Virus record (IMG/VR): IMGVR_UViG_3300023179_000123
Location: 1 to 58,516 of that record
Strand: one strand, 5' to 3'
From: a virus
Length of the DNA: 58,516 nt
The notes under the pieces were generated by a model. That model did not search any database. It saw only the letters and a program-made list of their open reading frames with translations, and was not told the origin of the DNA. Of this stretch, positions 6,829 to 50,704 are shown piece after piece (positions within the stretch are counted from its first letter, which is position 1; each line of letters begins with the position of its first letter). Position numbers and translations under genes: made by a program.

Positions 6829-7308
6829 TTAATAACCCAACATAATATTTATTGGTGAATAAGGTGTTTGTTTAGTTGTAATATTTTGTGCTGTTAGATA
6901 TTTAATAGTACCATTAAATGACATCCAACGAAGCGGTGGTGTGGAGAATACTATATTAGATGAACTTATCTCATACCCTGAATTGAAGGGTTCAATCTCA
7001 GATAAATTTAAATAATCATGTAAATGTTCTGTAGCTTGTATGGGAAAATTTCCTAGATAAATTTTTAATGCATATGGGCTTTTAGGTATAACCGATACGC
7101 CATTGACTTTTAGCGGAAAGATTTTATCAATACCATTAAATAACGGCGATATATCATCAAGTATATCTTCTGATCCTGCGCCAGTACTAGGAGAATTACT
7201 TACTGTTAAATTTCCAGTAAGTACTATATTACCTATTGTTACATTAGCTAATTGAGCAGAATTACCTAAAAGTTCTTTTACTAGATAGGTTGAATATTGT
7301 AATGCCAT
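6829..7308 (-). CDS. Small fibre-associated structural protein, unknown
   Basis: The ATG at 7308 overlaps the stop of the giant fibre gene as TAATG and gives a 159-residue protein. A longer reading to 7326 would need an unnecessary 19-nt overlap. The N-terminus (MALQYSTYLVKELLGNSAQLANVTIGNIVLTGNLTV) looks like a fibre-attachment segment followed by a shaft repeat. The C-terminal part contains 'LKVNGVSVIPKSPYALKIYLGNFP', a pattern also found in short structural proteins of T4-like marine phages. Co-translation with the 2247-residue fibre suggests a partner, adaptor or trimerisation chaperone of that fibre (inference). Confidence 0.6.
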   Translation of the reverse strand: MALQYSTYLVKELLGNSAQLANVTIGNIVLTGNLTVSNSPSTGAGSEDILDDISPLFNGIDKIFPLKVNGVSVIPKSPYALKIYLGNFPIQATEHLHDYLNLSEIEPFNSGYEISSSNIVFSTPPLRWMSFNGTIKYLTAQNITTKQTPYSPINIMLGY

Positions 7309-10300
7309 TAGTTTAACAATCTCCAACCATATGTTACGTTAAAATAAACAAATCCAAAATATGAATCTTCTGTATCAGATTCAAAATTATCGAATTGCCC
7401 CATGATTTTGCTACCGTTTCTTAAAATGGTCAATTTCTTAGTATCGAATGAACTGGTACCATCCAAGAAATAAACAGTATCCCCAAGTCTCGGATTTGGT
7501 GGTAAATTTATAAATGCAGGAACTGCTGCAGTGTTTACAATATATTTATATCCAGGTGCTGCAGTAGCATTCCCGGATATTTCTGCCCAACGTTCTGAAA
7601 CTGTAGCTATGGGCGCATTGCCCATATGAGTAACTTCAATTGATACATTTGCTGGAGGTGCTTCATTAAATGTTAGTACTGAACCAGATAAAGTATACTC
7701 TGTTTGGTGTTGTTTTAATCCATCAAACGATACTAATAATGCAGCTCCGCTACTTGGAGTTCTACTTAATGAAAACTGTGTGTTGGAACCGTTTGCTGTA
7801 AACGAATCTACTGCAAAACCTTCCCCCAAATCAACAAACGTGCCTACAGATAAAATATCACCTGCTTCTGCGCCCACTAATAAAGTAACTGCAGTACCGT
7901 TAGACGTATAATCTAATGTTGGTTCAAGTAATACACCATTAAGGTGTACTTGCATTCTTTGTGTACTAGGTATAATAAGTATCTGGGATGTATCATCAGT
8001 TCCAGCAAATATTGTTTGCGACGCATTAGCTGTATATCTGTATTTCTGGTAGGCAGCAACATTTGATGAAAGAGTAGCTGGTCCCCAAGTATTACCTAAC
8101 CATGTCAGTGCTTGTCCTGTTGTTGGCGCAGTGTTTGAAACATTTTTTAATTGTCCTATTACTAATTCGTTCTGTGAATTACTAAATGTTCTTACGAAAA
8201 TATTTGCGCCAGAATCAGGGGCGGAAGTAAATGCCAATACGCTATTAGTTATATTATAATTATAACTTGGTTGTTGTATAACACCATTAACGAAAACTAA
8301 AGCTTGATTTGAATCTCCACTAATATAACTTAAATTAAAGTTAGTATTACTACCATCTCCCAAGAATTCTTGGTTAGCTACTGTGCCAAGGAAAAACTTA
8401 GTATTATATACAGAGTCTGTGGAAAAATATTTTACAGAAATTACAGAATTGGATGAGGGTATTTCATCAAATACCAAATATTGACCTGAAGTAGTGTAAT
8501 TATTTGGATAATTTTGATTTATTCCATCCACATATACTAATACATTATTAGGTGTGGCTGGAGTGAATCCCATGTTAAAAGACGTGTTCGTCCCATCACC
8601 ATAGAATATAGATGTTTGTTGTGCTCCTATTAAAAGAACATTTGAACCCCCTCCTCCACCAGAAACAGTACCGGGTTGCCAGATATTACCTGACCATACT
8701 AATGCTTGTCCTGTGCTGGGTACAGTATTGCTTACATCTAAAAATATACTTAAGTTAGATGTAGCTAATCTAGCATCTACTCTAGCATTTGTAAAATATA
8801 GATTAGCGCCCTCTGATATATTAGATGTATTTAATACTATGGTGCCATTAGCACCATTAACTGAGGTGACGCCTCCAGTTACAGTTATAATACCATTTGC
8901 TTGGTCATAACTTCCTGATCCTGATACTGAAATGGCAGACCTAACTCTGCTGTTAGTGTAATATAGATTAGTGACTTCTGATACATTAGCAGTGGTTAAT
9001 AATGGACTTATATTAGCATAAACACGAGTATTTGTATAATAAAGATTAGTGACTTCTGATACATTAGCAGTGGTTAATAATGGACTTATATTAGCATAAA
9101 CACGAGTATTTGTATAATAAAGATTAGTGCCTTCTTCTATATCAGTTGTACTGGTTGCTAAATTATAATATGCAGTACCATTATTGGTAAATTGCCATCT
9201 ATCAGTACTTTCATTCCATTTTAAATCTACATTAGCACTTGATCCTCTGTTAACTAAAATTCCTGCGTCAAGTACAGGAGATCCGGTATGATTAGAATTT
9301 AGAACTACTTGATTATCTGCAACTGTTAATGTTTGAGAATTTAATGTAGTAGTATTACCAGATACTATCAAATTACCTGTTACTACAGCATCCCCCGCTA
9401 TAGTAATAGTTGTAGATGTAATATCATTACTATATAATCTACCATTAACTGTAATGTCATTTACAGTGACAAAATTAATGTTAGCCGCATTACCTAAAAG
9501 TGTGGTAATATTAGCACTATTTACAACCAATCCATCGGTCCTAGATTGTAGTAATGTCCCGCCCAAATCAATAGTGTTTCCTGAAAGATATAAATCTTTC
9601 CATCTATTTGTCGCATTACCTAAATTATAAACCGAATTCTGTGAAGGTATTATATTGCCATCGAATGCAGTGAAATAAGATTTAACTCTTGCATTAGTAT
9701 AGTAAAGATTTCCGCCCTCAGCGATATTGGTAGTAGTTAATACTACAGCGCCGTTCGCACCATTAACTGTTGTAACCCCGCCAGTAACTGTAATAATACC
9801 ATTCGCTTGGTCATAACTACCTGATCCTGTTACTGAAATAGCTGCTCTAGCACGAGCATTTGTGAAATATAGATTTGTGCCTTCAGCTATTTGAGTAGTT
9901 GTGGAATTTAAAACATTAGCTACAGGAGTAGGTTCCCATAAACTTGTTGCACCGTTATAAACTAAGATATTATTTGCAACAGGTGTAATATATGCTGCAA
10001 AATCGCCCAAATTGCTTAAGTTTAAATCTATTTGTTCTGATGAAAAATACCTATATGAAATATAAGCATTTGTTTCAGGCGGCGAAGTAAAGGTTAAAAC
10101 ATTTGAACTAACAGTGTAGTTTTGTATAGGTGTTTGTAAAACAGAATCTACAAATACTAATATAGCATTAGCAGATTGAGGAACAAAGGTTAAATTATAA
10201 TTTGAAGTACTATTATTTCCATAAAATTCACCAGTAAATAATCTACCTATTAAAAATGCATTAGATGTATCTGCTGAAATTACACCAGTATTGGAATTAT

Positions 10301-13300
10301 AAACTATACCTACACCTGCCGAAAGAGCTGCCCTTGCTCTTGCATTAGTAAAATATTGATTAGTTAATTCTACTACATTAGCAGTTGTTAAGTCTGCAGT
10401 TTTAGCATAACCTAAAAGATTGGCATCAAAACTTATTGATTGAGGAGTCGCATTAGTATTAAGAGTAATAACAATATTATTACCAGGTATAAATCTAACG
10501 GTATCTAATCCAGATGCTACAAGATTTGCTTGTCCTAGTACGTTCCAATATTTAAATGTTGAATTTAATTGTACTTTTGCTATACCATTCGCTCTATCTA
10601 AAACCTCAAATCCAGAATCAGAATCAAATTGTAAAGTATTTACGTTGGCAACACTGGTAGTAGCTACATTCGAAATATTAACTAACTGTACTTGTAACCC
10701 AGAAGTAATAATACCTGTAGTTACATTGTAGTTAATACCATTAGCAGCACTAATAGAGCTTCTTACTCTAGCATTGGTATAATATAAATTTGTACCTTCA
10801 GTTACATTACTTGTGGTTAAATCTACGACATTTGCTTTTAGGTTTAATAATCCAATTACATTGGAATAAACACGAGCATTTGTATAGTATAGATTTGTAA
10901 CTTCTGCAACATTGGCAGTAGTTAAATCTACGACATTTGCTTTTAGGTTTAATAATCCAATTACATTGGAATAAACACGAGCATTTGTATAGTATAGATT
11001 TGTAACTTCTGCAACATTGGCAGTAGTTAAATCGACTACGTTGGCTTTATTATTAAGTAATCCAATTACATTGGAATAAACACGAGCATTTGTATAGTAT
11101 AGATTTGTAACTTCTGCAACATTGGCAGTAGTTAATAATGGACTTATATTTGCATAAACTCTAGCATTAGTGTAGTATAAATTAGTACCTTCAGTAATAT
11201 TAGAAGTAGTAGCACCTTGAATTATATTTGCATATAATATATTAGCTCTTACTGCACCTGGAACAGTAATATTACCAGTATTGTCAAAAGTGAAGTTGTA
11301 ACTACCAGCAATAACTATAGTATTAGAGCCAGTGCCAATTAAATTGCCGCCAATATTTCCCGAATAGTTGGGAAGTAAAACAGTTACATTGGAATAAACT
11401 CTAGCATTAGTATAATATAAATTCGTTAATTCTGCAACATTAGCTGTAGTTAAAAGAGGACTAATATTGGAATAAACACGAGCATTTGTATAATATAAAT
11501 TCGTTAATTCTGCAACATTAGCTGTAGTTAAAAGAGGACTAATATTGGCATAAACTCTAGCATTAGTATAATATAAATTCGTTAATTCTGCAACATTAGC
11601 TGTAGTTAAATCTACTACGTTGGCTTTATTATTAAGTAGTCCAATAACGTTAGCATAAACACGTGCATTAGTATAGTATAGATTTGTTCCTTCAGTTACA
11701 TTGCTTGTAGTCAAATCTACGACATTTGCTTTTAGGTTTAATAATCCAATTACATTCGAATAAACTCTAGCATTAGTATAATATAGATTTGTGACTTCTG
11801 CTACGTTAGCAGTAGTTAAAAGAGGACTAATATTGGCATAAACACGAGCATTAGTGTAATATAGATTACTGCCTTCAGCTATATTTGATGTAGTAGCACC
11901 TTGAATTATATTTGCATATAATATGTTTGTTCTAATTGTACCTGGTGCAGAGAAAACACCTGTATTATCAAATACATAATTGTAACTACCAGCTAATATT
12001 ATTGTATTCTGCGTGGTTCCTACTATATTGCCGCCTATATTACCTGTGTAGTTAGGTAATAAAGAAATTACATTAGAGTAAACTCTTGCATTAGTATAAT
12101 ATAAATTTGTTACTTCAGAAACATTAGCTGTAGTTAATAATGGATTGATGTTCGCATAAACACGTGCATTGGTATAATATAAGTTAGTACCTTCAGTTAC
12201 ATTGCTTGTGGTCAAATCTACGACATTTGCTTTTAAGTTTAATAATCCTATTACATTAGAGTAAACTCTAGCATTAGTATAATATAAATTCGTTAATTCT
12301 GCAACATTAGCTGTAGTTAAATCGACTACATTAGCTTTTGCGGCGAAATTCGGTGTTAAATAAGCGCCTACTCTAGCATTTGTATAATATAAATTAGTGC
12401 CTTCAATTAAATTAGAAGTAGTATGATTTAATAAAGTACTTACTGTTCCTGTTACATTTCCAATAAAACCACTAGCTTGAACGTTTGCTAAACGAAATGT
12501 CGTATTACTTGTGTCTATAAATATCGATGTGTCCGGTTCTGGTTCGTAATTCTCAAAGAATTTCCATATACCATCTGTTGCATCTCTAAACAACCCAGAA
12601 TGATGATATATTCCGTCGTTATACCCACCCGCAAATCCTAGATCTGGATTCGCAGATGCTTTTATAAATGCATTGCCGCCTGTAACATATGAATCAGTGA
12701 CATTACTAGAAATAGTAATAGTATTAGCAGTAACAGCAATGATTGGAACGTATGAAGTATTAAAGGTAGAAGGATTCACACCTGTAACTCTAACTACGTA
12801 TCCTACCTGTTCATTATGTGTTCCTGCTACAGTGTATGTTACATTTGACCCATTTCCTACAGCATTAGTTATATTTTCAGCAACTGCCTCATTCAGATAA
12901 ATCATATTATCAGAAATGGATACCGATCTAGTGTTCAAAAGTGTCGCATTTCCAGCAAAGGTGACATTACCTGTAACTAATAAATCTTTGAATTCAACGG
13001 AAGATGATGTGGCAACATTCTGCCCGATGGATATGACACCTGTGGTATTACTATATGTTACACCAGTACCACCGGAAATAGCTGTTCTAACTCTACTATT
13101 AGTGTAATACAGATTAGTGGTTTCCACCACATTTGCCGTAGTTAATTTTGGAGTTACGAACGAGTCTACTCTATTATTTGTATAATAAAGATTAGTTCCC
13201 TCATTCAAATTTGATGTAGTATTGCCAGAAGTTAAGACAGAATTGCCTTTAACTATAATATTTTTATTAGATTCAAATGAATCCGACGCAGTTCTATATA

Positions 13301-14051
13301 AAAGATTAGCATTTACATAATCTATAACTATACCTGAACCATCAGTGGCGGCAGCATTTGGCGCACCATTGGACAATACAATTACTTTATTATCTACCTG
13401 CAATGTAGCAGAGATAACTAAAATATTTGAATTAATAGCTGTAATATTACCTAATACAGTAAGATTACCTTCTACGATTAAATCATGTAGTGAAAGATCG
13501 GTATTAGTTAGAGCTGCGCGCGCTCTTGCATTCGTAAAATATAAATTAGATAATTCAGCTACATTGGCTGTGGTTAATAATGGACTTATATTAGCATAAA
13601 CACGAGCATTGGTGTAATATAGATTACTACCTTCAGCCAGATTGCTTGTAGTAGCACCTTGAATCACATTAGCATAAAGAATATTAGTTCTTACCGCACC
13701 TGGAATAGTAATATTACCAGTATTGTCGAAGGTAAAGGAATAACTACCTGCTATTACGCTAGTATTAGTATAATTACCTATTAAGTTGCCTGCTCCTATA
13801 TTGCCAGTGTAATTTGGCAATAAACTTGTTACGTTTGAGTAAACACGAGCATTAGAATAAAAAAGATTGGCCGATCCCTCAATCAAACGATCTGTATTAC
13901 CAGCACCTAGTAAAAATATATTTCCAGTGCCATCTTTGGTAAAAAGTTGTCGATCAGCAAGATTAACCGCAAGTTCACCTACGGCCACGTTGGCAGCGTC
14001 AGGCACTCTCCCTGACACCGAGGAGCGTTTAATTTGAAATTGATTAGGCAT
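7308..14051 (-). CDS. Giant long tail fibre protein with YTNARV repeats (2247 aa)
   Basis: The N-terminal segment 'MPNQFQIKRSSVSGRVPDAANVAVGELAVNLADRQLFTKDGTG' is the standard attachment domain of T4-like marine phage fibres. I count 27 copies of a motif of the form L-Y-Y-T-N-A-R-V, alternating with 'PLLTTANVAEVTN' and 'GLLNLKANVVDLTTSNVTEGTN' linkers, spread over residues about 60-1765. The C-terminal third holds five copies of the 'FxGDGSxTxFxL..........VLVFVDGVxQ.P..NY' repeat common in phage fibres. The last domain (GDTVYFLDGTSSFDTKKLTILRNGSKIMG) is probably the distal tip. A T4-type late promoter lies about 50 nt upstream of the start. The role as long tail fibre is inferred from repeats and context. 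Confidence 0.8.
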   Translation of the reverse strand: MPNQFQIKRSSVSGRVPDAANVAVGELAVNLADRQLFTKDGTGNIFLLGAGNTDRLIEGSANLFYSNARVYSNVTSLLPNYTGNIGAGNLIGNYTNTSVIAGSYSFTFDNTGNITIPGAVRTNILYANVIQGATTSNLAEGSNLYYTNARVYANISPLLTTANVAELSNLYFTNARARAALTNTDLSLHDLIVEGNLTVLGNITAINSNILVISATLQVDNKVIVLSNGAPNAAATDGSGIVIDYVNANLLYRTASDSFESNKNIIVKGNSVLTSGNTTSNLNEGTNLYYTNNRVDSFVTPKLTTANVVETTNLYYTNSRVRTAISGGTGVTYSNTTGVISIGQNVATSSSVEFKDLLVTGNVTFAGNATLLNTRSVSISDNMIYLNEAVAENITNAVGNGSNVTYTVAGTHNEQVGYVVRVTGVNPSTFNTSYVPIIAVTANTITISSNVTDSYVTGGNAFIKASANPDLGFAGGYNDGIYHHSGLFRDATDGIWKFFENYEPEPDTSIFIDTSNTTFRLANVQASGFIGNVTGTVSTLLNHTTSNLIEGTNLYYTNARVGAYLTPNFAAKANVVDLTTANVAELTNLYYTNARVYSNVIGLLNLKANVVDLTTSNVTEGTNLYYTNARVYANINPLLTTANVSEVTNLYYTNARVYSNVISLLPNYTGNIGGNIVGTTQNTIILAGSYNYVFDNTGVFSAPGTIRTNILYANIIQGATTSNIAEGSNLYYTNARVYANISPLLTTANVAEVTNLYYTNARVYSNVIGLLNLKANVVDLTTSNVTEGTNLYYTNARVYANVIGLLNNKANVVDLTTANVAELTNLYYTNARVYANISPLLTTANVAELTNLYYTNARVYSNISPLLTTANVAELTNLYYTNARVYSNVTVLLPNYSGNIGGNLIGTGSNTIVIAGSYNFTFDNTGNITVPGAVRANILYANIIQGATTSNITEGTNLYYTNARVYANISPLLTTANVAEVTNLYYTNARVYSNVIGLLNNKANVVDLTTANVAEVTNLYYTNARVYSNVIGLLNLKANVVDLTTANVAEVTNLYYTNARVYSNVIGLLNLKANVVDLTTSNVTEGTNLYYTNARVRSSISAANGINYNVTTGIITSGLQVQLVNISNVATTSVANVNTLQFDSDSGFEVLDRANGIAKVQLNSTFKYWNVLGQANLVASGLDTVRFIPGNNIVITLNTNATPQSISFDANLLGYAKTADLTTANVVELTNQYFTNARARAALSAGVGIVYNSNTGVISADTSNAFLIGRLFTGEFYGNNSTSNYNLTFVPQSANAILVFVDSVLQTPIQNYTVSSNVLTFTSPPETNAYISYRYFSSEQIDLNLSNLGDFAAYITPVANNILVYNGATSLWEPTPVANVLNSTTTQIAEGTNLYFTNARARAAISVTGSGSYDQANGIITVTGGVTTVNGANGAVVLTTTNIAEGGNLYYTNARVKSYFTAFDGNIIPSQNSVYNLGNATNRWKDLYLSGNTIDLGGTLLQSRTDGLVVNSANITTLLGNAANINFVTVNDITVNGRLYSNDITSTTITIAGDAVVTGNLIVSGNTTTLNSQTLTVADNQVVLNSNHTGSPVLDAGILVNRGSSANVDLKWNESTDRWQFTNNGTAYYNLATSTTDIEEGTNLYYTNTRVYANISPLLTTANVSEVTNLYYTNTRVYANISPLLTTANVSEVTNLYYTNSRVRSAISVSGSGSYDQANGIITVTGGVTSVNGANGTIVLNTSNISEGANLYFTNARVDARLATSNLSIFLDVSNTVPSTGQALVWSGNIWQPGTVSGGGGGSNVLLIGAQQTSIFYGDGTNTSFNMGFTPATPNNVLVYVDGINQNYPNNYTTSGQYLVFDEIPSSNSVISVKYFSTDSVYNTKFFLGTVANQEFLGDGSNTNFNLSYISGDSNQALVFVNGVIQQPSYNYNITNSVLAFTSAPDSGANIFVRTFSNSQNELVIGQLKNVSNTAPTTGQALTWLGNTWGPATLSSNVAAYQKYRYTANASQTIFAGTDDTSQILIIPSTQRMQVHLNGVLLEPTLDYTSNGTAVTLLVGAEAGDILSVGTFVDLGEGFAVDSFTANGSNTQFSLSRTPSSGAALLVSFDGLKQHQTEYTLSGSVLTFNEAPPANVSIEVTHMGNAPIATVSERWAEISGNATAAPGYKYIVNTAAVPAFINLPPNPRLGDTVYFLDGTSSFDTKKLTILRNGSKIMGQFDNFESDTEDSYFGFVYFNVTYGWRLLN
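8760..13870 (-). repeat. YTNARV-type intragenic repeat array
   Basis: Within the giant fibre gene the motif LYYTNARV and close variants (YTNSRV, YTNTRV, YFTNARA) occurs 27 times by direct count. The densest part is about 10,740-12,420. At DNA level several units are nearly identical (for example the segments around 10,855-10,940 and 10,935-11,050), while third-position changes separate others. That pattern suggests repeated unequal exchange followed by drift. Such arrays would let fibre length change by recombination. Confidence 0.85.
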
Positions 14052-14109: not shown

Positions 14110-15489
14110 CTATGTATTGGTTATGGTAAATATTATTGGGTTTGATAAAGAAGGCAACGAAGCATTACTTGATGCGCTAAAACCTGTAGAATTAAAAGTA
14201 CAGTTATAAAGACCTACAGCAAGATAGTAAGTTCCTGCTGAAAGAGATACGGGAGAACTGGGCGCATTTTCCGAACCGGCTCCAGAACCTGGAATTTGGC
14301 TTTCTAAATTCCCAGCAGAATCATCATCTTTCACTATAAGATTGCCCGAAGAATTGTATAATGCTATTTCAGTATCATAACCATTGGTTGTGGGGGCAGT
14401 AGTAGCGGTAAATGTTCTTGTAGATCCTAAAATAAATTTGTACCAAGCGATATTATTTAATACGTGATTGCCGGAGGGATTCACTGACGCATTTGATTCA
14501 TTACTTGAAATAGTAATAGGCGCCAGAACAGTATGACTTATTGAACTTGATGATGATGTTGATACACTATTCCACGCTTGAATAGAAAAAGTGCAATCTT
14601 CAGTAACAGTTTCTGATACACTTGTAGTAGAAGAATTAAAATGTTTATAGATTGAGCCATTTTTATATAATCTAACTACATCTGCGTTTGATGTGGACCA
14701 TGATAATGTAGTACTTCCTCCGCCTATACCAAAACTACTTGTACTTGAAGAAAAGCTACTAATTGAAGGGCTACCTTCTGCGGTATAAGTATCATTTAAA
14801 CTAACAATAGTAGTTCCTACTAATGTGCCGCTATGGCTTCCAGTTCTTACTTGAAATGTTAGTGATTCTGTTCCTTCAGTTAATCTATCAGGAGTTACAG
14901 TAAATGTCTTACTTGCTGATCCAGAACTAACCGAAAAAGTACCAGTCTCAGTAGGCGTAGCCTCTAAAGTTGCATATTCTGGTTGATTCGCAACATCAGC
15001 TAAAAATTGATTTAAAGTATTGTAATTATCTATTAAAAAATTATTGGTGTGATAATCAACTGCTACGGTAGATTCTGGGAATCTACCCAACAATCTTGTA
15101 TATACCTTGTTAACTATACTTCCATATCCTGTTGCTCCGCTACTCGAATATGAAGTATTTTGATATGTATAATTAGCAGCATCTAAATCTCTAGTGTTAA
15201 CACCACTTAAAGTATAATATAGTGTAGTTCCATTTGCAACATATTTTGTAGTTGTGGTAAAGGTTAATGAATCGCCCTCATTAGCAGATGCTGCACTAGA
15301 AGATACAGTGTATGTTAAATCTTGTCCGCCGCAATCCGCACTAAGTCTTATTTGTCCTGTTGTAATTGAAGGATTTCTATTCGCACCTAGAGTTCCTCTC
15401 AATCCTAAATTAGAATAAGATGTACTTCCAGTAAAAAAGTTATAAACTTGACTAAATGTTATCTGTGAACCTACCGCGGGAGTACCCAT
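14110..15489 (-). CDS. Multidomain structural protein with Calx-beta-like, DUF4214-like and PPC-like modules
   Basis: 459 residues in several recognisable pieces. The first part is 'MGTPAVGSQITFSQVYNFF', a phage virion-protein opening found in cyanophages. Then follow Calx-beta-like halves (SANEGDSLTFTTTTKYVANGTTLYYTLSG and TPDRLTEGTESLTFQVRTGSHSG), interrupted by a DUF4214-like module (IVNKVYTRLLGRFPESTVAVDYHTNN to ADVANQPEYA). Next is an Ig/PKD-like strand set (GGGSTTLSWSTSNADVVRLYKNGS). At the C-terminus is a PPC-like sandwich (WYKFILGSTRTFTATTAPTTNGYDTEIALYNSSGNLIVKDDD). All are extracellular adhesive or scaffold modules. It lies between two fibre genes and shares one base with the upstream stop. 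The exact place in the virion is unknown. Confidence 0.65.
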   Translation of the reverse strand: MGTPAVGSQITFSQVYNFFTGSTSYSNLGLRGTLGANRNPSITTGQIRLSADCGGQDLTYTVSSSAASANEGDSLTFTTTTKYVANGTTLYYTLSGVNTRDLDAANYTYQNTSYSSSGATGYGSIVNKVYTRLLGRFPESTVAVDYHTNNFLIDNYNTLNQFLADVANQPEYATLEATPTETGTFSVSSGSASKTFTVTPDRLTEGTESLTFQVRTGSHSGTLVGTTIVSLNDTYTAEGSPSISSFSSSTSSFGIGGGSTTLSWSTSNADVVRLYKNGSIYKHFNSSTTSVSETVTEDCTFSIQAWNSVSTSSSSSISHTVLAPITISSNESNASVNPSGNHVLNNIAWYKFILGSTRTFTATTAPTTNGYDTEIALYNSSGNLIVKDDDSAGNLESQIPGSGAGSENAPSSPVSLSAGTYYLAVGLYNCTFNSTGFSASSNASLPSLSNPIIFTITNT

Positions 15490-18400
15490 TACTTAGCTAA
15501 CCTTTTAACTAATTCTTTTAGTTCTTCGATTTGAGATTGTTGTTCTTTAATTGCCTCGATTAACAACGGGACAATTTTTTCATATCTAACTGCTTTGTAG
15601 CCATCGTCTTTTTTCGCAACTACTTCTGGTAATACTTTTTCTATTTCTTGTGCAATAACACCAATATCTTGTTTTCTAACAAAATATCCATCCTCACCGC
15701 CTCTAGAATTAATATAATCTTCAGTCCAATCAAAGTTCACACCTCTGATACTTAGCAACTTTTCTAAAGGATTTTGAATGACCGCAACATTTTCTTTTAA
15801 TCTTTCATCTGAAGAATAATATGCTGTTATCTCACCTGTAGCAGTAATGGATCCCGTTACTGTTAAAGAACCAGTACTTAAAGATTGATTGGTAGATGTT
15901 CCTCTTGCAGTAACAGTAGCTAATGTATCAGTTTCTGAATAACTAGTAATATATCCCCTAGTAGTCACATAGTTTTCTGTGGCATATCCAGCAAGTGCCG
16001 AAGATGTTATAAAATTCGCACCATTAGTTAACTGGTTGGTATTAGTTGGTATTGTAATAACACCTGATCCACTATTGTACCCACCTGATCCTGCAGTAAA
16101 ACTTAATGAGGAAAGAGTAATGTAACCAGAACCATTAGTTAATTGATTTGTATTAGAAGGAATAGTTGGTTTATTACTTAAATCTGTATAGCTACCGCTG
16201 AAATTAGAATAACCATAACCAGCTGAAGCATGATTGCCCCAACCATATGCTGTATCCCAATTAGCAGTTTTTTCTGTACCGTTACTAACAAATCTTATAT
16301 TAGTGCCATCATTGTAAATTCTATTATTATTACTTACTGTATTAGAACTGGGTGGTATGAATAAATTATTGCCATATCTTAAAGTAATACCATCTGTAAC
16401 TAAACCATCGTCAAACGTCTTTACGCCACCAATAGTTTGTGTTCCAGAAGTACTTACGTCTCCCGTGCCTAGTTTAGTACCATCATAATATAATCCATCA
16501 GATTTACCGATTAAGTCTTTACTTACACCTCCAAATGTAAATTTAACATCAGTTGTATAAAGGTTTCCTGGGAAAGATGTTTTGCCATCTGAGCCATAAA
16601 ATGTAATCGCTTTATAACTAGTGGTACTAGGTGTCTTAACAGACAAACTTATATTATCCCCTACGTCTACCAAAGTTCCTGTTGGATAATTAGTATTTGC
16701 AGCAGCATTAATCCATAAAGCACTTTGTGACAATATCGGAGAAGTAAATGTCTTGACCCCGGTTAATGTTTGATTTGTAGCAGTCAAAACATATGAGGTA
16801 TTAGAAGTTAGTACATACGAAGTATTTGAAGTTCTAACAACTGAAGCATCAACTGCTACTGCATCCGCACTCACCGTGATACCATCACCTTGGCCGACAT
16901 TCAATGTTACATCTGGACCACCTTCACTAGACCCCGTTAATCCACTTCCCGCTGTAACAGAAGTAACATCACCTCCGCCGCCACCTGATCCAGTTATAGT
17001 AATGGTATTGGCATCTGTTCGAGCAATTGAAACTGTGCCTGCCCCTATTAAATTAACGTTGTCAATTGATGAATCTGATCCAGTTATTCTTATATTTGCG
17101 CCAGATGTAGCTGTTTCAGCACTAATACCGTAGGTCGTGTTAGTATCTGTATCAGGGGGGGTCGCCCAGGAACCATCTGCTCTCAAGAAGTTACTAGTAG
17201 AACCAGTTGCTTTAGGAAGCGTAGATGTGCCGTCAATAGTTATGCCTGTGGGTTGGAAAGTTACTACGTCAATTGCAGTGCCTGCTTTTGACAATCCATA
17301 TGTATTTGATGATAAAGAATAATATATTGAACCTTTATTATTAACAGCACCAAAATTTATAGTATTTGATGTTAAATACGTACTATTTAAATAAGTAGTT
17401 CCAGAAAATGTCTTTGTACCAGTTATAGTTTGCGTTCCTGCAATTAAAACGTATGAGGTATTAGAAGTTAGTACATACGAAGTATTTGAAGTTCTAACAA
17501 CTGAAGCATCAACTGCTACTGCATCCGCACTCACTGTGATACCATCACCTTGGCCGACATTCAATGTTACATCTGGACCAGATTCGCTAGTTCCGGTTAA
17601 TCCACTTCCCGCCGTAACAGAAGTAACATCACCAGTGCCACCTCCTCCTTGTAATCCAGTTATATCGAGGGTAGATGTGGCATTTTGAAAATAAAGACGC
17701 CCACCACTACCAAATATTCTATGTGTTGCTGATGTATTTAAGTTAATGAATCTATCATTAGCAATCAATATATTACCAGTAGTAGTAGTGTTAGCAGCAT
17801 TTAATTGTATCTGCCCTGTACTTCCTGCGGAATCTATGTAGATTACATTACCATCTGGGACATAAGCTTTTGGTCCTGAATTGGCTGATACACCATTAAA
17901 ACCATTTAAAGTTAGATATAGCTTATTAGTGTTCGGACCCAATCCATTCAAAACCACATCGCTTGAAAATGTTTTGGTTCCAGTAAATGTTTGACTTGTA
18001 CTTAGAGTTGCTAAATAATCAGTATTAGCTGCGAATGAACCACTAGACGTAATAGTGGTCGGATTAGCTATTATACCGGTTCCCGCAGTTAATGATACTG
18101 CACCTGAACTTGTGCCAATAGTACTACCATTTATAGTTGATCCTGCAGGTAAATTGACTATACCTGCGCCCGGAGATGTTATTTGCGCACTGCCTAGATA
18201 TATAGTAGAACCTGATAGATATAAATCTTTCCACCTAAAATTAGAAGCACCCAAATCAAATATATTGTTAGAGGACGGCAATAAATTAGAAGATATTACT
18301 GCCGAATTACCATTTGCATTAGCGTTTAGTTTAAATATAACATTACTATTAACACTAAATGCCATATGGTCATAAATATTGTCATAGTAAATACTAGTAT

Positions 18401-20939
18401 CAGCAGTATCATTTACATCATCTACAAAATTTAATGCTGCTCCGCCTGATTTATTTAAAATAATCATACCATTCGAATAGATACTATCTGCTACTAAAGT
18501 ATTAGCTATTCTAATTTCACCACTAACAAGCACATTGCCGGCCAATACGTTTCCAGTAATACTAGCATTTGAAATATTGGTGCTTGCAATACCCGCAGCT
18601 AATCTTGCATTTGATACTGCTCCTGTGGTTACATCTGATACTTGTGTAATAGAACCAGAGCCGCCACCGCCGCCTGCTCCTTCTAGGCCAGTTATATCTA
18701 ATGTATTTGTACTATTTTGAAAATAAAGACGCCCACCACTACCAAATATTCTATGTGTTGCTGCTGTATTTAAGCTAATAAACCTATTAGTACTGATTAG
18801 TATATTACCGGTTGAAGCAACATTGGCCGCATTTAATTGTATCTGTCCTCTACTAGCATTAGCATCTATGTAAATTACATTGCCATCTGGCGCAGTGGGG
18901 CTAGAATTCGCACTAATTTGGTTTAAAGAATTTAATGTAAGATATAATTTACTACCACCTGGGGCATCACCTTGCCCATCTAAAATAACATTATCATCAA
19001 ATACCTTCATACCAAAGAATGTTTGAGTTCCAGTAGTTAGATAGGTATTACCAGAAGTAGCAATAACATTATCAGTAACAAGAGTTACAGCACCAGTTTT
19101 GCCATTAACTGATGTTACACCTGCACCTGAAACTGCTTGAGTAATATTAATTGTGTCAGTTGTATTTTGAAAAAATAAACTACCACCGCTAGCAAATAAA
19201 CGATGAACTGATGAGGTATTAAGATTAAGGAATCTATTATTAGCAATCAATATATTACCGGTTGAAGCAACATTGGCCGCATTTAATTGTATCTGTCCTC
19301 TACTAGCATTAGCATCTATGTAAATTACATTGCCATCTGGCGCAGTGGGGCTAGAATTCGCACTAATTTGGTTTAAAGAATTTAATGTAAGATATAATTT
19401 ACTACCACCTGGGGCATCACCTTGCCCATCTAAAATAACATTATCATCAAATACCTTCATACCAAAGAATGTTTGTGTAGTATTACTTACAAACACATTT
19501 GAAACAGTTTGAATAATATTGTCTGTATATAAAGTTACAGCACCAGTTTTGCCATTAACTGATGTTACACCTGCACCTGAAACTGCTTGAGTAATATTAA
19601 TTGTGTCAGTTGTATTTTGAAAAAATAAACTACCACCGCTAGCAAACAATCTATGTGTTGCGTCTACATTTAAATTTAAACTTCTATTAGATGGTAAACT
19701 AATATTTCCTGTAGCTACAATATTATTAGCATATAGATTTATAGTTCCACCGTTTTGAAACGTACCTAAAGTTAATGTCTTAGTAACACCATCTCCATAA
19801 ATTGCAGTATTGCCTGGGACATCTAGGTATAAGGTTGGACCAGTTACACCTGTGCCAGCAATAAAAATATTACTTGAGGTTCTTACATTAGCTCCAAAAC
19901 TGATTGAATTACCATTTGCATTAGCCTTTAATGCTAATAATACATTTCCGTTAACACTAAATGCCATATGGTCATAAATATTGTCATAATAAATACTAGT
20001 ATCAGCAGTATCATTTACATCATCTACAAAATTTAATGCTGCTCCGCCTGATTTATTTAAAATAATAACAGCATTAGCACGTACATTATCTGCTAAAATA
20101 CTAGAATCAACTCTAATGTCACCTGTTACTAATACATTACCTGCATTGATATTTCCACTAGTCCCATTAGAAAGATTAATAGTACTAGTGGAATTTTTGA
20201 AATATAGTTGACCGCCAGATGCGAATAGATAATGAGAACTCTCCACATTTAATCTAAGTACTGCATTAGCTGGCATAATAACATTGCCATTAGCAACAAT
20301 ATTACTAGTATAAAGATTAAGTGTACCACCGTTGGTATTGTTACCAATTGTTATTACATTTGCGGCCGCTGGATCAGACGATGAAATAGAATTTGCCTGT
20401 ATAGCATTCCAACCAGGAATATCTAAGTATAATGTAGATCCTGTAGAATCTAATCCTTTACCATTTAAAAACACATCACCGTAAAAATATACTCTAGCAT
20501 TTGCATTATCTTGTATTACATTACCTCTAAGATATGCATTATCAGAAATATAGGTATTATAGGAATCAATAAAGACATTGCCTTGTCTTGAATTGGAATT
20601 GATATAGATGTAATTAGGACCAATAGAATATATTTGATCTACACTTGATGCTCCAAGAAACAAATTGCCCCGATAGTAATCACTAGATCTATCTAAAACT
20701 ACGTTTCCAGTAACGCCTATAGTATTTGGTGTTTTTAAGTAAAAACCTGTTCCTACATTGCCGCTCCATGCGTAACTTGGCCTAGTAGCAGATGAAGTAA
20801 TATTTGCTAGAAATTGTCCACCATTGTACAACCCCGCAAAATTACTATTAATTTTTTGAAAGGCAGTTCTTAAAGGATCACCAGTATTATCATTAGCTGC
20901 GCTTCCAACACCTATTACTAATACGTTACTTGTTAGCAT
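15489..20939 (-). CDS. Long tail fibre protein with C-terminal S74 intramolecular chaperone
   Basis: 1816 residues. The N-terminus 'MLTSNVLVIGVGSAANDNTGDPLRTAFQKINSNFAGLYN' is the conserved attachment domain of many marine myovirus fibres. The shaft is Asn/Gly/Ser-rich with long internal duplications. Residues about 1709-1816 form a peptidase S74 / endosialidase-type chaperone: 'SSDERLKENV', 'GVNFDWTEDY', 'DIGVIAQEIEKVLPEVV' and 'YEKIVPLLIEAIKEQQ', ending in a coiled coil. In this family the domain drives trimer folding and then cuts itself off at the Ser of SDERLK, using a Ser/Asp or Lys dyad. Here Ser1710 and Asp1711 are present. The distal shaft is therefore probably a trimeric beta-structure. 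Confidence 0.85.
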   Translation of the reverse strand: MLTSNVLVIGVGSAANDNTGDPLRTAFQKINSNFAGLYNGGQFLANITSSATRPSYAWSGNVGTGFYLKTPNTIGVTGNVVLDRSSDYYRGNLFLGASSVDQIYSIGPNYIYINSNSRQGNVFIDSYNTYISDNAYLRGNVIQDNANARVYFYGDVFLNGKGLDSTGSTLYLDIPGWNAIQANSISSSDPAAANVITIGNNTNGGTLNLYTSNIVANGNVIMPANAVLRLNVESSHYLFASGGQLYFKNSTSTINLSNGTSGNINAGNVLVTGDIRVDSSILADNVRANAVIILNKSGGAALNFVDDVNDTADTSIYYDNIYDHMAFSVNGNVLLALKANANGNSISFGANVRTSSNIFIAGTGVTGPTLYLDVPGNTAIYGDGVTKTLTLGTFQNGGTINLYANNIVATGNISLPSNRSLNLNVDATHRLFASGGSLFFQNTTDTINITQAVSGAGVTSVNGKTGAVTLYTDNIIQTVSNVFVSNTTQTFFGMKVFDDNVILDGQGDAPGGSKLYLTLNSLNQISANSSPTAPDGNVIYIDANASRGQIQLNAANVASTGNILIANNRFLNLNTSSVHRLFASGGSLFFQNTTDTINITQAVSGAGVTSVNGKTGAVTLVTDNVIATSGNTYLTTGTQTFFGMKVFDDNVILDGQGDAPGGSKLYLTLNSLNQISANSSPTAPDGNVIYIDANASRGQIQLNAANVASTGNILISTNRFISLNTAATHRIFGSGGRLYFQNSTNTLDITGLEGAGGGGGSGSITQVSDVTTGAVSNARLAAGIASTNISNASITGNVLAGNVLVSGEIRIANTLVADSIYSNGMIILNKSGGAALNFVDDVNDTADTSIYYDNIYDHMAFSVNSNVIFKLNANANGNSAVISSNLLPSSNNIFDLGASNFRWKDLYLSGSTIYLGSAQITSPGAGIVNLPAGSTINGSTIGTSSGAVSLTAGTGIIANPTTITSSGSFAANTDYLATLSTSQTFTGTKTFSSDVVLNGLGPNTNKLYLTLNGFNGVSANSGPKAYVPDGNVIYIDSAGSTGQIQLNAANTTTTGNILIANDRFINLNTSATHRIFGSGGRLYFQNATSTLDITGLQGGGGTGDVTSVTAGSGLTGTSESGPDVTLNVGQGDGITVSADAVAVDASVVRTSNTSYVLTSNTSYVLIAGTQTITGTKTFSGTTYLNSTYLTSNTINFGAVNNKGSIYYSLSSNTYGLSKAGTAIDVVTFQPTGITIDGTSTLPKATGSTSNFLRADGSWATPPDTDTNTTYGISAETATSGANIRITGSDSSIDNVNLIGAGTVSIARTDANTITITGSGGGGGDVTSVTAGSGLTGSSEGGPDVTLNVGQGDGITVSADAVAVDASVVRTSNTSYVLTSNTSYVLTATNQTLTGVKTFTSPILSQSALWINAAANTNYPTGTLVDVGDNISLSVKTPSTTSYKAITFYGSDGKTSFPGNLYTTDVKFTFGGVSKDLIGKSDGLYYDGTKLGTGDVSTSGTQTIGGVKTFDDGLVTDGITLRYGNNLFIPPSSNTVSNNNRIYNDGTNIRFVSNGTEKTANWDTAYGWGNHASAGYGYSNFSGSYTDLSNKPTIPSNTNQLTNGSGYITLSSLSFTAGSGGYNSGSGVITIPTNTNQLTNGANFITSSALAGYATENYVTTRGYITSYSETDTLATVTARGTSTNQSLSTGSLTVTGSITATGEITAYYSSDERLKENVAVIQNPLEKLLSIRGVNFDWTEDYINSRGGEDGYFVRKQDIGVIAQEIEKVLPEVVAKKDDGYKAVRYEKIVPLLIEAIKEQQSQIEELKELVKRLAK
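18801..19475 (-). repeat. Tandem 450-bp duplication inside the S74 fibre gene
   Basis: Bases 18,801-19,025 and 19,251-19,475 are identical over 225 bp, 450 bp apart. Flanking blocks (about 19,083-19,195 and 19,533-19,645) also match at the same spacing. The unit is therefore a 150-codon in-frame tandem duplication of shaft sequence. Two further direct repeats lie in the same gene: 16,792-16,920 with 17,452-17,580 (one mismatch) and 18,349-18,464 with 19,951-20,066 (one mismatch). The near-perfect identity points to recent duplication or ongoing gene conversion. Confidence 0.9.
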
Positions 20940-46165: not shown

Positions 46166-46390
46166 CTATGCGGTATCGTCTTCTCTATTAGCAACTACAA
46201 TATATGGCCACTGAGAAACACGTTTAGTAATTTCCTGTTGATTAACTGCAAGTTTAACTAAATATCTTTGAGTTTCTTTCAAAGATTCTGATAATTGAGT
46301 AATATTATCTTGAATTATTGCCATATTCTTCTCAATATCAACTATCTTTTGTTGGGTTATATCCAATGATTGTTCTAAAAATTCGCTCAT
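46166..46390 (-). CDS. Conserved small coiled-coil protein
   Basis: 74 residues, mostly one predicted amphipathic helix (ITQQKIVDIEKNMAIIQDNITQLSESLKETQRYLVKLAVNQQEITKRV), followed by the short motif 'QWPYIVVANREDD'. This layout (coiled coil plus WPYI) recurs next to gp59 in cyanophage-like genomes. It overlaps the end of gp59 by 53 nt. The ribosome site is weak, so expression may depend on coupling. The function is not known. Confidence 0.6.
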   Translation of the reverse strand: MSEFLEQSLDITQQKIVDIEKNMAIIQDNITQLSESLKETQRYLVKLAVNQQEITKRVSQWPYIVVANREDDTA

Positions 46391-46961
46391 ATTTTTCTAA
46401 ATCTACTTTAAGAAAAGGTTTATATTTGTCTATTAGTCTAGATATGTCTGGCCATAATACTGTATCAGTTATATGATGATTAAAACTATCTCTATAATTT
46501 AATATTTGTTCTAGTATTACTAAAGTTTCAATATTAATAGTTTTTCTTAAATATGCTTTTATTATATATGGATGTTGACCTTTGGTAATGGAAAATAAAT
46601 GGTTCAAATCAAATTTATTATCTTCCATTTCTTGAACAAGTTTATTTAAATCATTTTCAAAATTATAGTGAAGTGCTTCCAATCTTTTTTTCCATTGAAT
46701 ATATCTTTCGTTTGCCTCAGTATCAAACACACCTCCCCATCTATCACCTGATACAAAATTAGCAATTAAAAAGTTCGCTACTTCTTCATCAGAATAATTT
46801 TTAGCAATTTTGTTAATTGCGTATAAATCTTTTCTTTTTAAAAACGCTGTTTTTGTTGCCCTCACCTTGCCTTTTTGCTTAACTACATCATATTTATCTG
46901 TAGTAAAATGTAATTTTAATGCTAGATAAAATCTATAAACTTCAAACGCATCCATTATCAT
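46338..46961 (-). CDS. 59: Helicase loader gp59
   Basis: 207 residues (T4 has 217). 'MDAFEVYRFYLALKLHFTTDKYDVVKQKGKVRATKTAFLKRKDLYAINKIAKNYSDEEVANFLIANFVSGDRWGGVFDTEANERYIQWKKRLEALHYNFENDL' is the conserved N-terminal DNA-binding domain, and the rest is helical as in T4. gp59 loads the gp41 helicase onto gp32-coated forks. The gene lies next to gp32 and gp33, as in T4 (33-59-32). The start could be Met1 or Met3; the overlap with the gp33 stop (46,958) fits Met1. Confidence 0.92.
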   Translation of the reverse strand: MIMDAFEVYRFYLALKLHFTTDKYDVVKQKGKVRATKTAFLKRKDLYAINKIAKNYSDEEVANFLIANFVSGDRWGGVFDTEANERYIQWKKRLEALHYNFENDLNKLVQEMEDNKFDLNHLFSITKGQHPYIIKAYLRKTINIETLVILEQILNYRDSFNHHITDTVLWPDISRLIDKYKPFLKVDLEKYERIFRTIIGYNPTKDS

Positions 46962-47209
46962 AAAGGAAGTTTGCCTCGTTTTTTCAAAAAATTCTGCTCT
47001 TCAGCTTCCAATTGTATTTTATCCTTTAAAGATTTATTAATAAGTCCTGCAATATTTTCAATATCAATATCTATTTCTTCACAATAAGAAATAACTGCTT
47101 CCATATAACCAATTTTTGTATCCTGCACTTTTTTCTCAATGTACAAAGAAAATTCGTTTGGTGATCTAAACTTCTTGGTTATTATTAAACTATCTGTTAT
47201 GGGTTTCAT
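46958..47209 (-). CDS. 33: Late transcription coactivator gp33
   Basis: 83 residues. 'FSLYIEKKVQDTKIGYMEAVISYCEEIDIDIENIAGLINKSLKDKIQLEAEEQNFLKKRGKLPL' matches the short gp33 form of marine T4-like phages, in which the C-terminal 'LEAEE.NFL....KLPL' is the sliding-clamp-binding tail. gp33 bridges the gp45 clamp and RNA polymerase at TATAAATA late promoters, several of which are visible in this window. It overlaps gp59 by 4 nt. Confidence 0.82.
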   Translation of the reverse strand: MKPITDSLIITKKFRSPNEFSLYIEKKVQDTKIGYMEAVISYCEEIDIDIENIAGLINKSLKDKIQLEAEEQNFLKKRGKLPL

Positions 47210-48452: not shown

Positions 48453-48488
48453 AAAAAGGCAGTTCTTTGGGTAACAAGGTGAACTGCC
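48453..48488 (-). terminator. Terminator hairpin after the tmRNA
   Basis: On the minus strand GGCAGTTC ... GAACTGCC is followed by TTTTTATTATTA, an intrinsic terminator or 3'-processing hairpin at the end of the tmRNA coding piece. The arms are at 48,481-48,488 and 48,458-48,465, with a 15-nt loop. Confidence 0.75.
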
Positions 48489-48690
48489 AATGCCCCGTCA
48501 GGTTTAAGCGGCTAGCTTAAGGTCCTGATAAAAATAGTCGTCGTTTGCGTCTATTTGCTTTTGCTAGGATTACGTCCTTCGCCTGTCGAGCAGCCTCAAA
48601 AGATACTTTACAGTCAATCGATACCAATTCATCCCCCTCGTCTTGGAGATGCCGAGATTCGAACTCGGGTCTTGCCCAGATTTCTCAATT
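48489..48690 (-). ncRNA. ssrA: Circularly permuted (two-piece) tmRNA
   Basis: Read on the minus strand. The acceptor piece comes first: GGGCAAGA, then a T arm of CCGAG-TTCGAAT-CTCGG (48,668-48,652), then the acceptor 3' strand CATCTCC (48,651-48,645) and discriminator A (48,644). After a 7-nt spacer (48,643-48,637) the coding piece begins with GGGGATG (48,636-48,630). This pairs with CATCTCC in seven base pairs, including G3-U70, the alanine identity pair. A D-loop-like TTGGTATCGATTGAC follows. The tag frame, after TAGAC, encodes ANDDYFYQDLKLAA and ends in TAA (48,548-48,504). The tag lies in a P5-type helix (TCAGG/CCTGA and TTAAGC/GCTTAA). tmRNA rescues stalled ribosomes with SmpB. The 5' end is approximate. 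Confidence 0.93.
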
Positions 48691-48701
48691 TTGGTTTACT
48701 G

Positions 48702-49370
48702 CTATTCTTTAGTTAATCTTTCATATTCGTTTCTATACAATAACAAATACTTAACCCAATTATCCCTTTTTTCAAAAAATACTTGCGGGTAATCATTTTC
48801 TACAGCAATGATTATAACTAATCTATTTATTGGAACACCGGTTAATTCTTCGTACATTATGGAATATGCTGCACATTGCATAAAGTATGAATGGATATGA
48901 TCTTTTTCTTTTCTTCTCGATGAAGTTTTAAAATCAATTACCGCCAATTTGCCTTTATACTCACCTATACAATCAACTGTACCAGAAAGGCGCAGGTGAT
49001 TAGAATACATTTGTTGTTCTTGACAATGAACATTATCTATGTTTTCTAGTATAGGTTGAATAGATAGAAAATTTTTAAGATCGAAAGGATTTTTAATTTC
49101 ACAATCTTCATTATTAATGTATTTTTCAACTATACTGTGTAATCTTGTCCCTCTACTGGCAGCCGTTTTTGAGATTCTTAACGCCTCAGCTTCTCCAACT
49201 CTTTTACGCCATTCTATAAGTCCTTGTTTATTGTGTAAAGAAAGAATTGTAGTAACTGAAGGATACTTATTGCCGTCAGGTGTTATATAGTATCTGGTAC
49301 CATCTGGTCTTGTTACTCTTTCCAATTTAGGTATGGGCTTCGTTGTCCCAACATGATAAAATTGCTTCAA
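48702..49370 (-). CDS. PD-(D/E)XK exonuclease, Cas4/MGME1-like
   Basis: 222 residues. The N-terminus has 'YYITPDGNKYPSVTTILS'. The nuclease motifs follow in order: 'RGTRLHSIVEKYI' (His78), 'EQQMYSNHLRLSGTVDCIGEYKGKLAVIDFKTS' (Glu118, Asp133, Asp146-x-Lys148) and 'QCAAYSIMYEE' (Gln165...Tyr169). This order matches RecB-family single-strand exonucleases such as Cas4 and MGME1. No iron-sulfur cysteine cluster is visible, so it is nearer to the MGME1-like form known in cyanophages. Likely role: recombination or end processing. It overlaps nothing and ends just before the tmRNA acceptor piece. Confidence 0.82.
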   Translation of the reverse strand: MKQFYHVGTTKPIPKLERVTRPDGTRYYITPDGNKYPSVTTILSLHNKQGLIEWRKRVGEAEALRISKTAASRGTRLHSIVEKYINNEDCEIKNPFDLKNFLSIQPILENIDNVHCQEQQMYSNHLRLSGTVDCIGEYKGKLAVIDFKTSSRRKEKDHIHSYFMQCAAYSIMYEELTGVPINRLVIIIAVENDYPQVFFEKRDNWVKYLLLYRNEYERLTKE

Positions 49371-49373
49371 GTA

Positions 49374-50006
49374 CTATCCCTGCAATATTTCAATAGCATG
49401 ATTATAATGTTTAACACGATCTTCTAACCCAATGAAGCCGCCATTAATACGTTTTGTTATCATTTTTAAATCTTGAATATCTGCCAATTCATTTAATTTA
49501 TTAGAAGTCCAGAACCAACAGGCAGAATGAAGCGCATAATATGGTTGTGTTAGTACATCTGGGTTCTGAAGTAAGGTATCATCCTCAAACATAGCCATAC
49601 TGCATCTTTGATAATTTGATTTACCGGTAAGTTGAATCAGACCTCTGCCTCTATATCTATAGCCTTCGCCTGAAGCTTCAGGTCCATTACCCATTCTATT
49701 TGCATAAACCCGGTTAGCAATTTTTTCAGGTTGTCTGTGGTATTGTTGTGCAATCTCAGCAGTTGGGAAATATTTTGGGAAAACTTTTCTTAAACCATCA
49801 GCAGAATAATTTAAATTCTCAGATAATAAAGTGAAACCGCCAGATTCATGCGCACATTGGGCAATGAATGCAGCAGTTCTAGCAATATCATTAATCTCAT
49901 ACTGAGGCAACACATCAACTAATGATTCATACCATTCACTTAAATTTTTGACACGAGGTATAAGATGTTGTAGTTGTTCCTCAGTAAAATCGAAATCAAA
50001 TGACAT
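49374..50006 (-). CDS. GH19 chitinase-like endolysin
   Basis: 210 residues. 'IARTAAFIAQCAHESGGFTLLSENLNYSADGLRKVFPKYFPTAEIAQQYHRQPEKIANRVYANRMGNGPEASGEGYRYRGRGLIQLTGKSNYQRCS' is the full GH19 catalytic pattern. Glu54 (HESGG) is the acid catalyst, Glu63 the probable base, and YRGRGLIQLTG the binding motif. No signal peptide or binding domain is seen, so release would need a holin. Phage GH19 enzymes cut peptidoglycan between MurNAc and GlcNAc. It overlaps the end of the IscU gene by 11 nt. Confidence 0.93.
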   Translation of the reverse strand: MSFDFDFTEEQLQHLIPRVKNLSEWYESLVDVLPQYEINDIARTAAFIAQCAHESGGFTLLSENLNYSADGLRKVFPKYFPTAEIAQQYHRQPEKIANRVYANRMGNGPEASGEGYRYRGRGLIQLTGKSNYQRCSMAMFEDDTLLQNPDVLTQPYYALHSACWFWTSNKLNELADIQDLKMITKRINGGFIGLEDRVKHYNHAIEILQG

Positions 50007-50382
50007 TGTTTTTCTCCTTAAAATCTTTTATAGCAGCCTTGATCGCATCCTCTGCCAATATGGAGCAGTGTATTTTAACGGGTGGTAACGCAAGTTCTTC
50101 TGCAATTTGAGTATTGCGAATAGTGCCGGCTTCGTCGAGACTCTTACCCTTGACCCATTCCGTAACGAGCGAACTAGACGCAATCGCTGAACCACATCCA
50201 TATGTTTTAAATTTAGCATCCGTAATGATTCCATTTTCATCTACCTGTATTTGTAGTTTCATTACATCTCCGCAAGCAGGTGCGCCAACCATGCCTGTAC
50301 CTATTCTTTTCACTTCTTTAGCAAAAGAGCCAACATTACGAGGATTTTCGTAGTGATCTAATACTTGAGAAGAGTAAGACAT
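49996..50382 (-). CDS. iscU: Iron-sulfur cluster scaffold protein IscU
   Basis: 128 residues. The ATG at 50,382 follows the IscA-type stop after 1 nt and gives the standard IscU start (MSYSSQVLDHYENPRNVGSF); a longer reading from 50,412 is unlikely. All scaffold residues are present: Cys37 (GAPACGD), Asp39, Cys63 (YGCGSAIASSS), His105 and Cys106 (KIHCS). The LPPVK motif (99-103), which HscA uses for cluster transfer, is intact, so it should work with the host machinery. The sequence is very close to betaproteobacterial IscU and is probably host-derived. It is expressed with the ErpA-type gene, consistent with cluster supply during infection. Confidence 0.95.
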   Translation of the reverse strand: MSYSSQVLDHYENPRNVGSFAKEVKRIGTGMVGAPACGDVMKLQIQVDENGIITDAKFKTYGCGSAIASSSLVTEWVKGKSLDEAGTIRNTQIAEELALPPVKIHCSILAEDAIKAAIKDFKEKNNVI

Positions 50383-50383
50383 T

Positions 50384-50704
50384 TTATGCAGCGAAAGATG
50401 AGCCACAACCACAAGTAGTTGTAGCGTTAGGATTTTTGATTACAAACTGTGCAGATGCTATATCTTTTTTATAATCTATTTCGGCTCCATCCAGATAGGA
50501 CATGGACATGGCATCAACTAATAATTTTACCCCATCTTTTTCTAATACAAAATCATCATCACCTTGTTTTTCATCAAATGTAAAACCATACTGAAATCCC
50601 GAACAACCTCCGCCCTGAATAAAAACTCTTAAAGGTGATGATTCATTTTCTTCTAATTGAACTTGTCTGATCTGATTGAAGGCTTTGTCTGTAACTGTTA
50701 ACAT
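50384..50704 (-). CDS. erpA: A-type iron-sulfur carrier, ErpA-like
   Basis: 106 residues. '[21 protein letters not shown]' (Cys34) and 'TTCGCGSSF' (Cys98, Cys100) give the three cluster cysteines. [15 protein letters not shown] and '[22 protein letters not shown]' are ErpA-like rather than IscA-like. A-type carriers take a cluster from IscU and hand it to target apoproteins. It starts on the stop codon of the 48-residue gene (TAATG) and is followed after 1 nt by IscU, so the three genes form one unit. Confidence 0.93.

Follow-up and report, generated by a model that had tools for sequence, protein, structure and literature searches.

tmRNA is the RNA that rescues stuck ribosomes; G3-U70 is the pair for its alanylation by AlaRS, and the roles of RNase P, the 3' processing enzyme, the CCA-adding enzyme, AlaRS, SmpB and ClpXP belong to established tmRNA knowledge. 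A two-piece tmRNA, alphaproteobacterial in type according to the authors, has been described in the Methylophilales phage Melnitz (MZ577097), and in the same paper, among 133 distinct phage tmRNA structures, ARAGORN gave a two-piece form for 53, of which 50 came from marine or aquatic phages (PMC9004378, 2022). The tmRNA database paper contains 79 phage sequences (PMC11915505). As two-piece phage tmRNAs have been in print since 2022, the tmRNA described here is of an already known kind. Melnitz, a T4-like phage, carries its permuted tmRNA in a slot between a PDDEXK exonuclease and gp33-gp59-gp32, and its order of PhoH, exonuclease, tmRNA, gp33, gp59 and gp32 is the order found here; unlike the present gene, that of Melnitz encodes CCA, its spacer is 145 nt long, its T loop differs and its tag is ANDNYVPVDYALAA.

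The window, meaning the whole stretch of 58,516 nt analyzed (IMG/VR record IMGVR_UViG_3300023179_000123), is a linear virus record and a fragment of a T4-like phage, with baseplate, head closure, gp32, gp59, gp33, PhoH and DNA ligase families. Its structural region includes two very large reading frames (7308-14051, 2247 aa; 15489-20939, 1816 aa). The initial annotation had proposed a phage-encoded circularly permuted tmRNA on the minus strand, to be checked by covariance search, and this proposal is confirmed: the Rfam model RF04321 gives a full-length match at 48504-48703 (minus strand) with 111.4 bits against a cut-off of 47, far beyond chance (E 6.1e-21), and relatives' matches and covariation agree (see below). 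The betaproteobacterial model RF01850 is barely over its cut-off (84.6 vs 84 bits), while the closest sibling, L002, whose tmRNA is 97.6% identical, passes the alpha model RF01849 instead (52 vs 50). The alpha or beta subtype is therefore ambiguous, the window being marginally beta and its sibling alpha.

The order of parts on the minus strand is permuted, with the T arm and acceptor 3' strand (48668-48645) preceding the acceptor 5' strand (48636-48630), and every part named in the initial annotation is present on the reading strand. The AGCAG strand of the long stem beneath the tRNA-like domain (48699-48703) is paired in the RF04321 alignment with CTGCT (48589-48593). Between these lie the T arm CCGAG-TTCGAAT-CTCGG (48652-48668), the acceptor 3' strand CATCTCC (48645-48651, with U70 at 48647), the discriminator A (48644), an intervening sequence of 7 nt, AGACGAG, without an encoded CCA (48637-48643), the acceptor 5' strand GGGGATG (48630-48636, with G3 at 48634) and a D-loop-like element, AATTGGTATCGA (48618-48629), which contains TATCGATTG in place of the TTTCGAC of most relatives. 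All seven acceptor pairs form, the G3-U70 pair singled out earlier among them. The lack of an encoded CCA had gone unmentioned in that first description. The tag reading frame, ANDDYFYQDLKLAA followed by TAA, occupies 48504-48548.

The limits first given to the gene, 48489-48690, should be moved to about 48703-48458, and two features at its 3' end stand only in part. A P5-type helix had been proposed around the tag end; the pairing TCAGG/CCTGA does exist (48498-48528), but across 59 tags such pairing shows no excess over shuffles in a crude test (6.42 vs 6.44). A terminator had also been proposed, and there is indeed a hairpin, GGCAGTTC-ACCTTGTTACCCAAA-GAACTGCC (48458-48488), with TTTTTATTATT next to it and TTTTT directly after the hairpin; however, a pattern scan limited to loops of 3-8 calls no terminator here, and the loop, CCUUGUUACC, is that of the last conserved hairpin of the RF01850 beta tmRNA model (beta-model loop CCTTGTTACC). 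Because it equals this conserved hairpin, the structure is probably part of the RNA; judged by sequence and alignment, the 3' end of the tag-bearing piece probably lies here, and the hairpin may also serve as a terminator. A promoter scan found fewer sites than in shuffles. The folding energy of the strand is not unusual (z -1.2, in an energy model without pseudoknots), which we count against a working two-piece tmRNA.

The gene sits in a conserved slot. On the minus strand the order is PhoH, an Fe-S protein, a NifU-like protein, a GH19 endolysin, a PD-(D/E)XK exonuclease (48702-49370; PF12705, phrog_298) directly upstream of the tmRNA, the tmRNA itself, an 88-aa ORF, a cell-wall hydrolase, a 111-aa ORF, and then the slot markers gp33, a late-transcription coactivator-like protein (46958-47209; PF16805), and gp59, a helicase loader-like protein (46338-46961; PF08993, PF08994), followed by gp32. 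The adjacent genes for NifU-like scaffold and Fe-S biosynthesis proteins (49996-50412 and 50384-50704) likely play an auxiliary part in building iron-sulphur clusters during infection. The last two bases of the exonuclease stop codon TAG (48704-48702) are the first two of the AGCAG stem, and because of this overlap exonuclease and tmRNA are probably co-transcribed. Across related phages the tmRNA lies on the exonuclease's strand wherever it could be located (70 loci, L002 and L004 being one contig and the window not counted), and of the 62 informative loci, 61 have every visible cell-wall hydrolase, gp33 and gp59 gene downstream of it; the sole exception is Melnitz, with its cell-wall hydrolase upstream. 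In L002, 4.8 kb separate exonuclease and tmRNA, and the immediate neighbours are other than those in the window.

Relatives were gathered through the exonuclease, which gave 80 related loci, and RF04321 was run on 82 records (80 IMG/VR contigs, Melnitz and phage C48C1). It scores above cut-off in 70 of the 82 (41/50 and 29/32); C48C1 has no match, and many loci without one end within about 2 kb of the exonuclease. Such a frequency shows that the gene is not a private acquisition of this phage, and permuted tmRNAs are apparently regular equipment, not a curiosity, in a large aquatic group of T4-like phages. After a truncated match (L144) had been left out, 70 tmRNAs were parsed (the window, Melnitz and 68 contigs), with 21 distinct T-arm/acceptor sequences; counts over these 70 are not independent, because many contigs are near-copies. 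ARAGORN, run independently, likewise calls a permuted tmRNA in 65 of these 70. The seven acceptor pairs, G3-U70 and discriminator A are kept in 70/70. Over 23 distinct sequences, 99.3% of cells are paired, a percentage inflated by a search model and parsing rules that reward pairing, which do not inflate the variety of pair types; both sides have changed in 7 of 12 pairs, and the covariation score is 0.522, against 0.118 when shuffled and at most 0.148 in slid controls. G3-U70 is invariant in this set while the adjacent pairs covary. The tmRNA structure is thus under selection. Three tight DNA patterns in viral contigs matched only L002, and blastn of the tmRNA and the surrounding 12.5 kb against 50,697 phage records returned no match.

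We infer, with a probability of roughly 0.7, that the product of the locus is a T4-like phage's circularly permuted tmRNA, processed into two pieces and active in trans-translation with host SmpB. A single precursor would be transcribed, probably from upstream, given the overlap with the exonuclease stop. Host RNase P, together with an enzyme of 3' processing (RNase Z, for example), would excise the 7-nt loop, the missing CCA would be supplied by the host CCA-adding enzyme, and AlaRS would charge the product through G3-U70. The RNA would then enter stalled ribosomes with SmpB and add the tag ANDDYFYQDLKLAA, which ends in LAA and should thereby lead to ClpXP; ribosomes would be kept free and truncated proteins cleared during infection. 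The RNA would depend on the host for SmpB, since 15 phage records, among them the window and several fragments, yielded no SmpB gene; this counts against the reading.

A part of the gene that fits this reading poorly is the spacer, counted here after the discriminator and with CCA included. With a 7-nt loop and no CCA, the acceptor stem of the window closes as a hairpin, and this, together with the CCA and longer spacers of nearly all close relatives, most of them with a terminal helix, counts against a working tmRNA. Among the 70 parsed tmRNAs, 67 encode CCA and have spacers of 32-180 nt, AGA with a 7-nt spacer occurs only in the window and L002, and in L132, whose tRNA-like part is of the window's type, CCA is encoded and the spacer measures 91 nt. 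ARAGORN, too, misses the window type: the five of the 70 that escape it are the window, L002, L003, L132 and L018, which is truncated by the end of its contig. A deletion of spacer and CCA might accordingly have disabled the gene and left a decaying tmRNA. We regard such decay as quite improbable, since the rest of the gene is intact, the window and L002 agree at 97.6% in the tmRNA but at only 88% and 84% in the flanks, and the same form is found elsewhere. L164 and L204 share the window's D region, a 7-nt spacer (AAACAGG) and the lack of CCA, with compensatory changes on both sides of two T-stem pairs (CCGAG/CTCGG to CCCGG/CCGGG). A targeted scan for short spacers retrieved 65 viral contigs, 49 of them with 8 nt or less; 42 of these 49 (L002 included) lack CCA, ARAGORN nevertheless reports a tmRNA in 32 of the 42, and several short-spacer contigs have cyanobacteria-like ANNIV or ANKIV tags. 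The Rfam cyanobacterial consensus RF01851 likewise has no CCA and a spacer of about 12 nt. The short CCA-less form is thus recurrent and seems maintained. AGA instead of CCA is not disqualifying either, as CCA is not always encoded at this position of the tmRNA (PMC11915505). The remark in the initial annotation that the spacer is unusually short holds among the window's own relatives (2 of 70), but short spacers recur in other phages, in the RF01851 consensus and, together with CCA, in two bacterial genomes. The gene might instead encode a decoy that binds SmpB, AlaRS or the ribosome and so blocks host tmRNA rather than tagging proteins; in E. coli the endogenous tmRNA is reported to be inhibited by a tmRNA of phage DS6A that has no tag (PMC11915505), and the form seen here may be slow to process. 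A decoy, however, needs no tag, whereas the tag frame of the window is intact, closes with a stop and encodes a canonical AND...LAA peptide, which makes this reading very unlikely.

The other two explanations concern the tag and the history of the gene rather than its spacer. Whatever codons are allowed for, an exact copy of the 14-aa tag occurs in none of 84,980 bacterial and archaeal species genomes, and tags vary widely among the phages (24 distinct peptides in 69 complete frames), so that the main benefit might lie in retagging, with the phage's own degron sending chosen proteins to another protease or sparing them. Set against this, every complete tag of the exonuclease-linked set has a final AA, in most cases LAA, like the tags of cells, and no selectivity for particular proteins is known; retagging as the main benefit is therefore unlikely, although compatible with the working two-piece tmRNA preferred here. 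The 14-aa tag recurs in 7 of the 70 parsed tmRNAs in three versions that differ only synonymously, yet near-neighbour tags overall show 24 synonymous vs 33 non-synonymous differences, which gives no general sign of strict tag conservation. The gene could, alternatively, be kept as a site of flank exchange between homologous phages, or be left over from prophage integration into host ssrA. It does look mosaic: minus its spacer, 48706-48540 is about 82% like L054 (the locus of tmRNA L132), whereas 48590-48457 is 90-94% identical to L005, L006 and L023; over 45 nt the identity to L003, which has a tRNA-like half of another type, is 97.8%; and L102 (the tmRNA of L040) joins the window's tag half and downstream gene start to a different tRNA-like half. 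These similarities argue for exchange at the border of the tRNA-like and tag modules with a break near 48590, and comparison of the sequences points to a chimera of two phage tmRNA types. The differing neighbours of L002 and L003 would also suit a landing site. The gene is, however, complete, with covarying stems and a conserved strand and slot, and neither the window nor 12 related records, several of which are fragments, yielded a tyrosine integrase (PF00589), so that this explanation is the most remote of those considered. An attachment-site remnant was likewise rejected, on the grounds of completeness, covariation and the fixed slot. All four alternatives thus rank below a working two-piece tmRNA.

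The initial annotation had also supposed that the phage took the gene from its host lineage, a claim that our searches do not bear out: the tag has no match in the genomes, and the D-region pattern, searched in bacterial and archaeal genomes as exact patterns only, gave a single chance match, in Ferrimonas; the stretch that holds it is unrelated, and RF04321-type permuted tmRNA is not matched in that genome. A survey of the Ferrimonas class (369 genomes) with RF04321 returned one match, under strict filters that left few candidates scored and thus not as a fair census. Occurrence in a conserved slot of many phages instead suggests long residence in phages with module swapping.

Spacers elsewhere have features of their own. 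Most exonuclease-linked spacers have complementary ends of 5-14 pairs (e.g., AAAAGNATTCT...AGAATGCTTTT), which the window does not have and which, as far as the letters indicate, would hold the two ends of the precursor together. The spacers of L119/L121, L127/L128, L124, L131 and L133 hold an ATG frame of 22-54 codons, in most cases preceded by a Shine-Dalgarno-like GGAG or AAGG; it stops at the TGA within the conserved ..TGAT that immediately precedes the acceptor 5' strand, so that the frame exactly fills the spacer. Several of the products have the look of a single membrane helix, and comparison with PHROGs gave no clear match. L003 has CCT at the CCA position, a 54-nt spacer and another tag, ANDSAFEVRLAA; its exonuclease is 93% identical to that of the window. 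The permuted tmRNAs of the bacterial genomes L210 (1501-1691) and L211, from one order in the Ferrimonas class, have 7-nt spacers that include CCA (CCACTAT and CCACTTT), and L210 has an SmpB-like ORF less than 1 kb away.

Beyond this locus, T4-like phages may keep a modular trans-translation RNA in which modules are swapped, spacer and CCA have been pared more than once, and a phage-only degron marks proteins differently from host tmRNA; we advance this generalization tentatively, as a possible but rather doubtful one. The 7-nt CCA-less loop offers a sharp test of the minimal needs of RNase P and 3' processing enzymes, and a phage-only tag makes the question of why phages carry tmRNA testable by tag swap or breakage. 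Published counts are probably too low, because ARAGORN, the standard finder, misses the sub-type of the window: L164 and L204 are overlooked as well, and 5 of the 7 missed tmRNAs have the D region TATCGATTG instead of TTTCGAC.

Besides Melnitz, three known types can be set beside the gene. The isolated Stenotrophomonas phages Bhz51 (Menderavirus) and DLP_6 score 118.5 and 136.8 bits with RF04321 and 92.1 and 103.7 with RF01850, and so have a beta-like tmRNA; unlike the window, both encode CCA and have longer spacers, and the Bhz51 tmRNA sits in a tRNA cluster. The strong permuted tmRNA of DLP_6 (KU682439.2; L213, 3004-3225) is without annotation in the deposited record. With the betaproteobacterial type the window shares a score above cut-off and the last hairpin with its CCUUGUUACC loop, but the intervening stretch is 31 model positions in RF01850 and 7 nt in the window, and membership is marginal. 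The cyanobacterial type and its cyanophage-like copies are CCA-less with a short spacer, as in the window (5 nt in L166), yet have a tag domain ANNIV... and different stems. Measured against openly licensed papers, some details of the present gene appear to be new, namely a slot conserved across many phages, the make-up of the gene as a chimera, the ARAGORN blind spot and a CCA-less sub-type outside the cyanobacteria-like tmRNAs.
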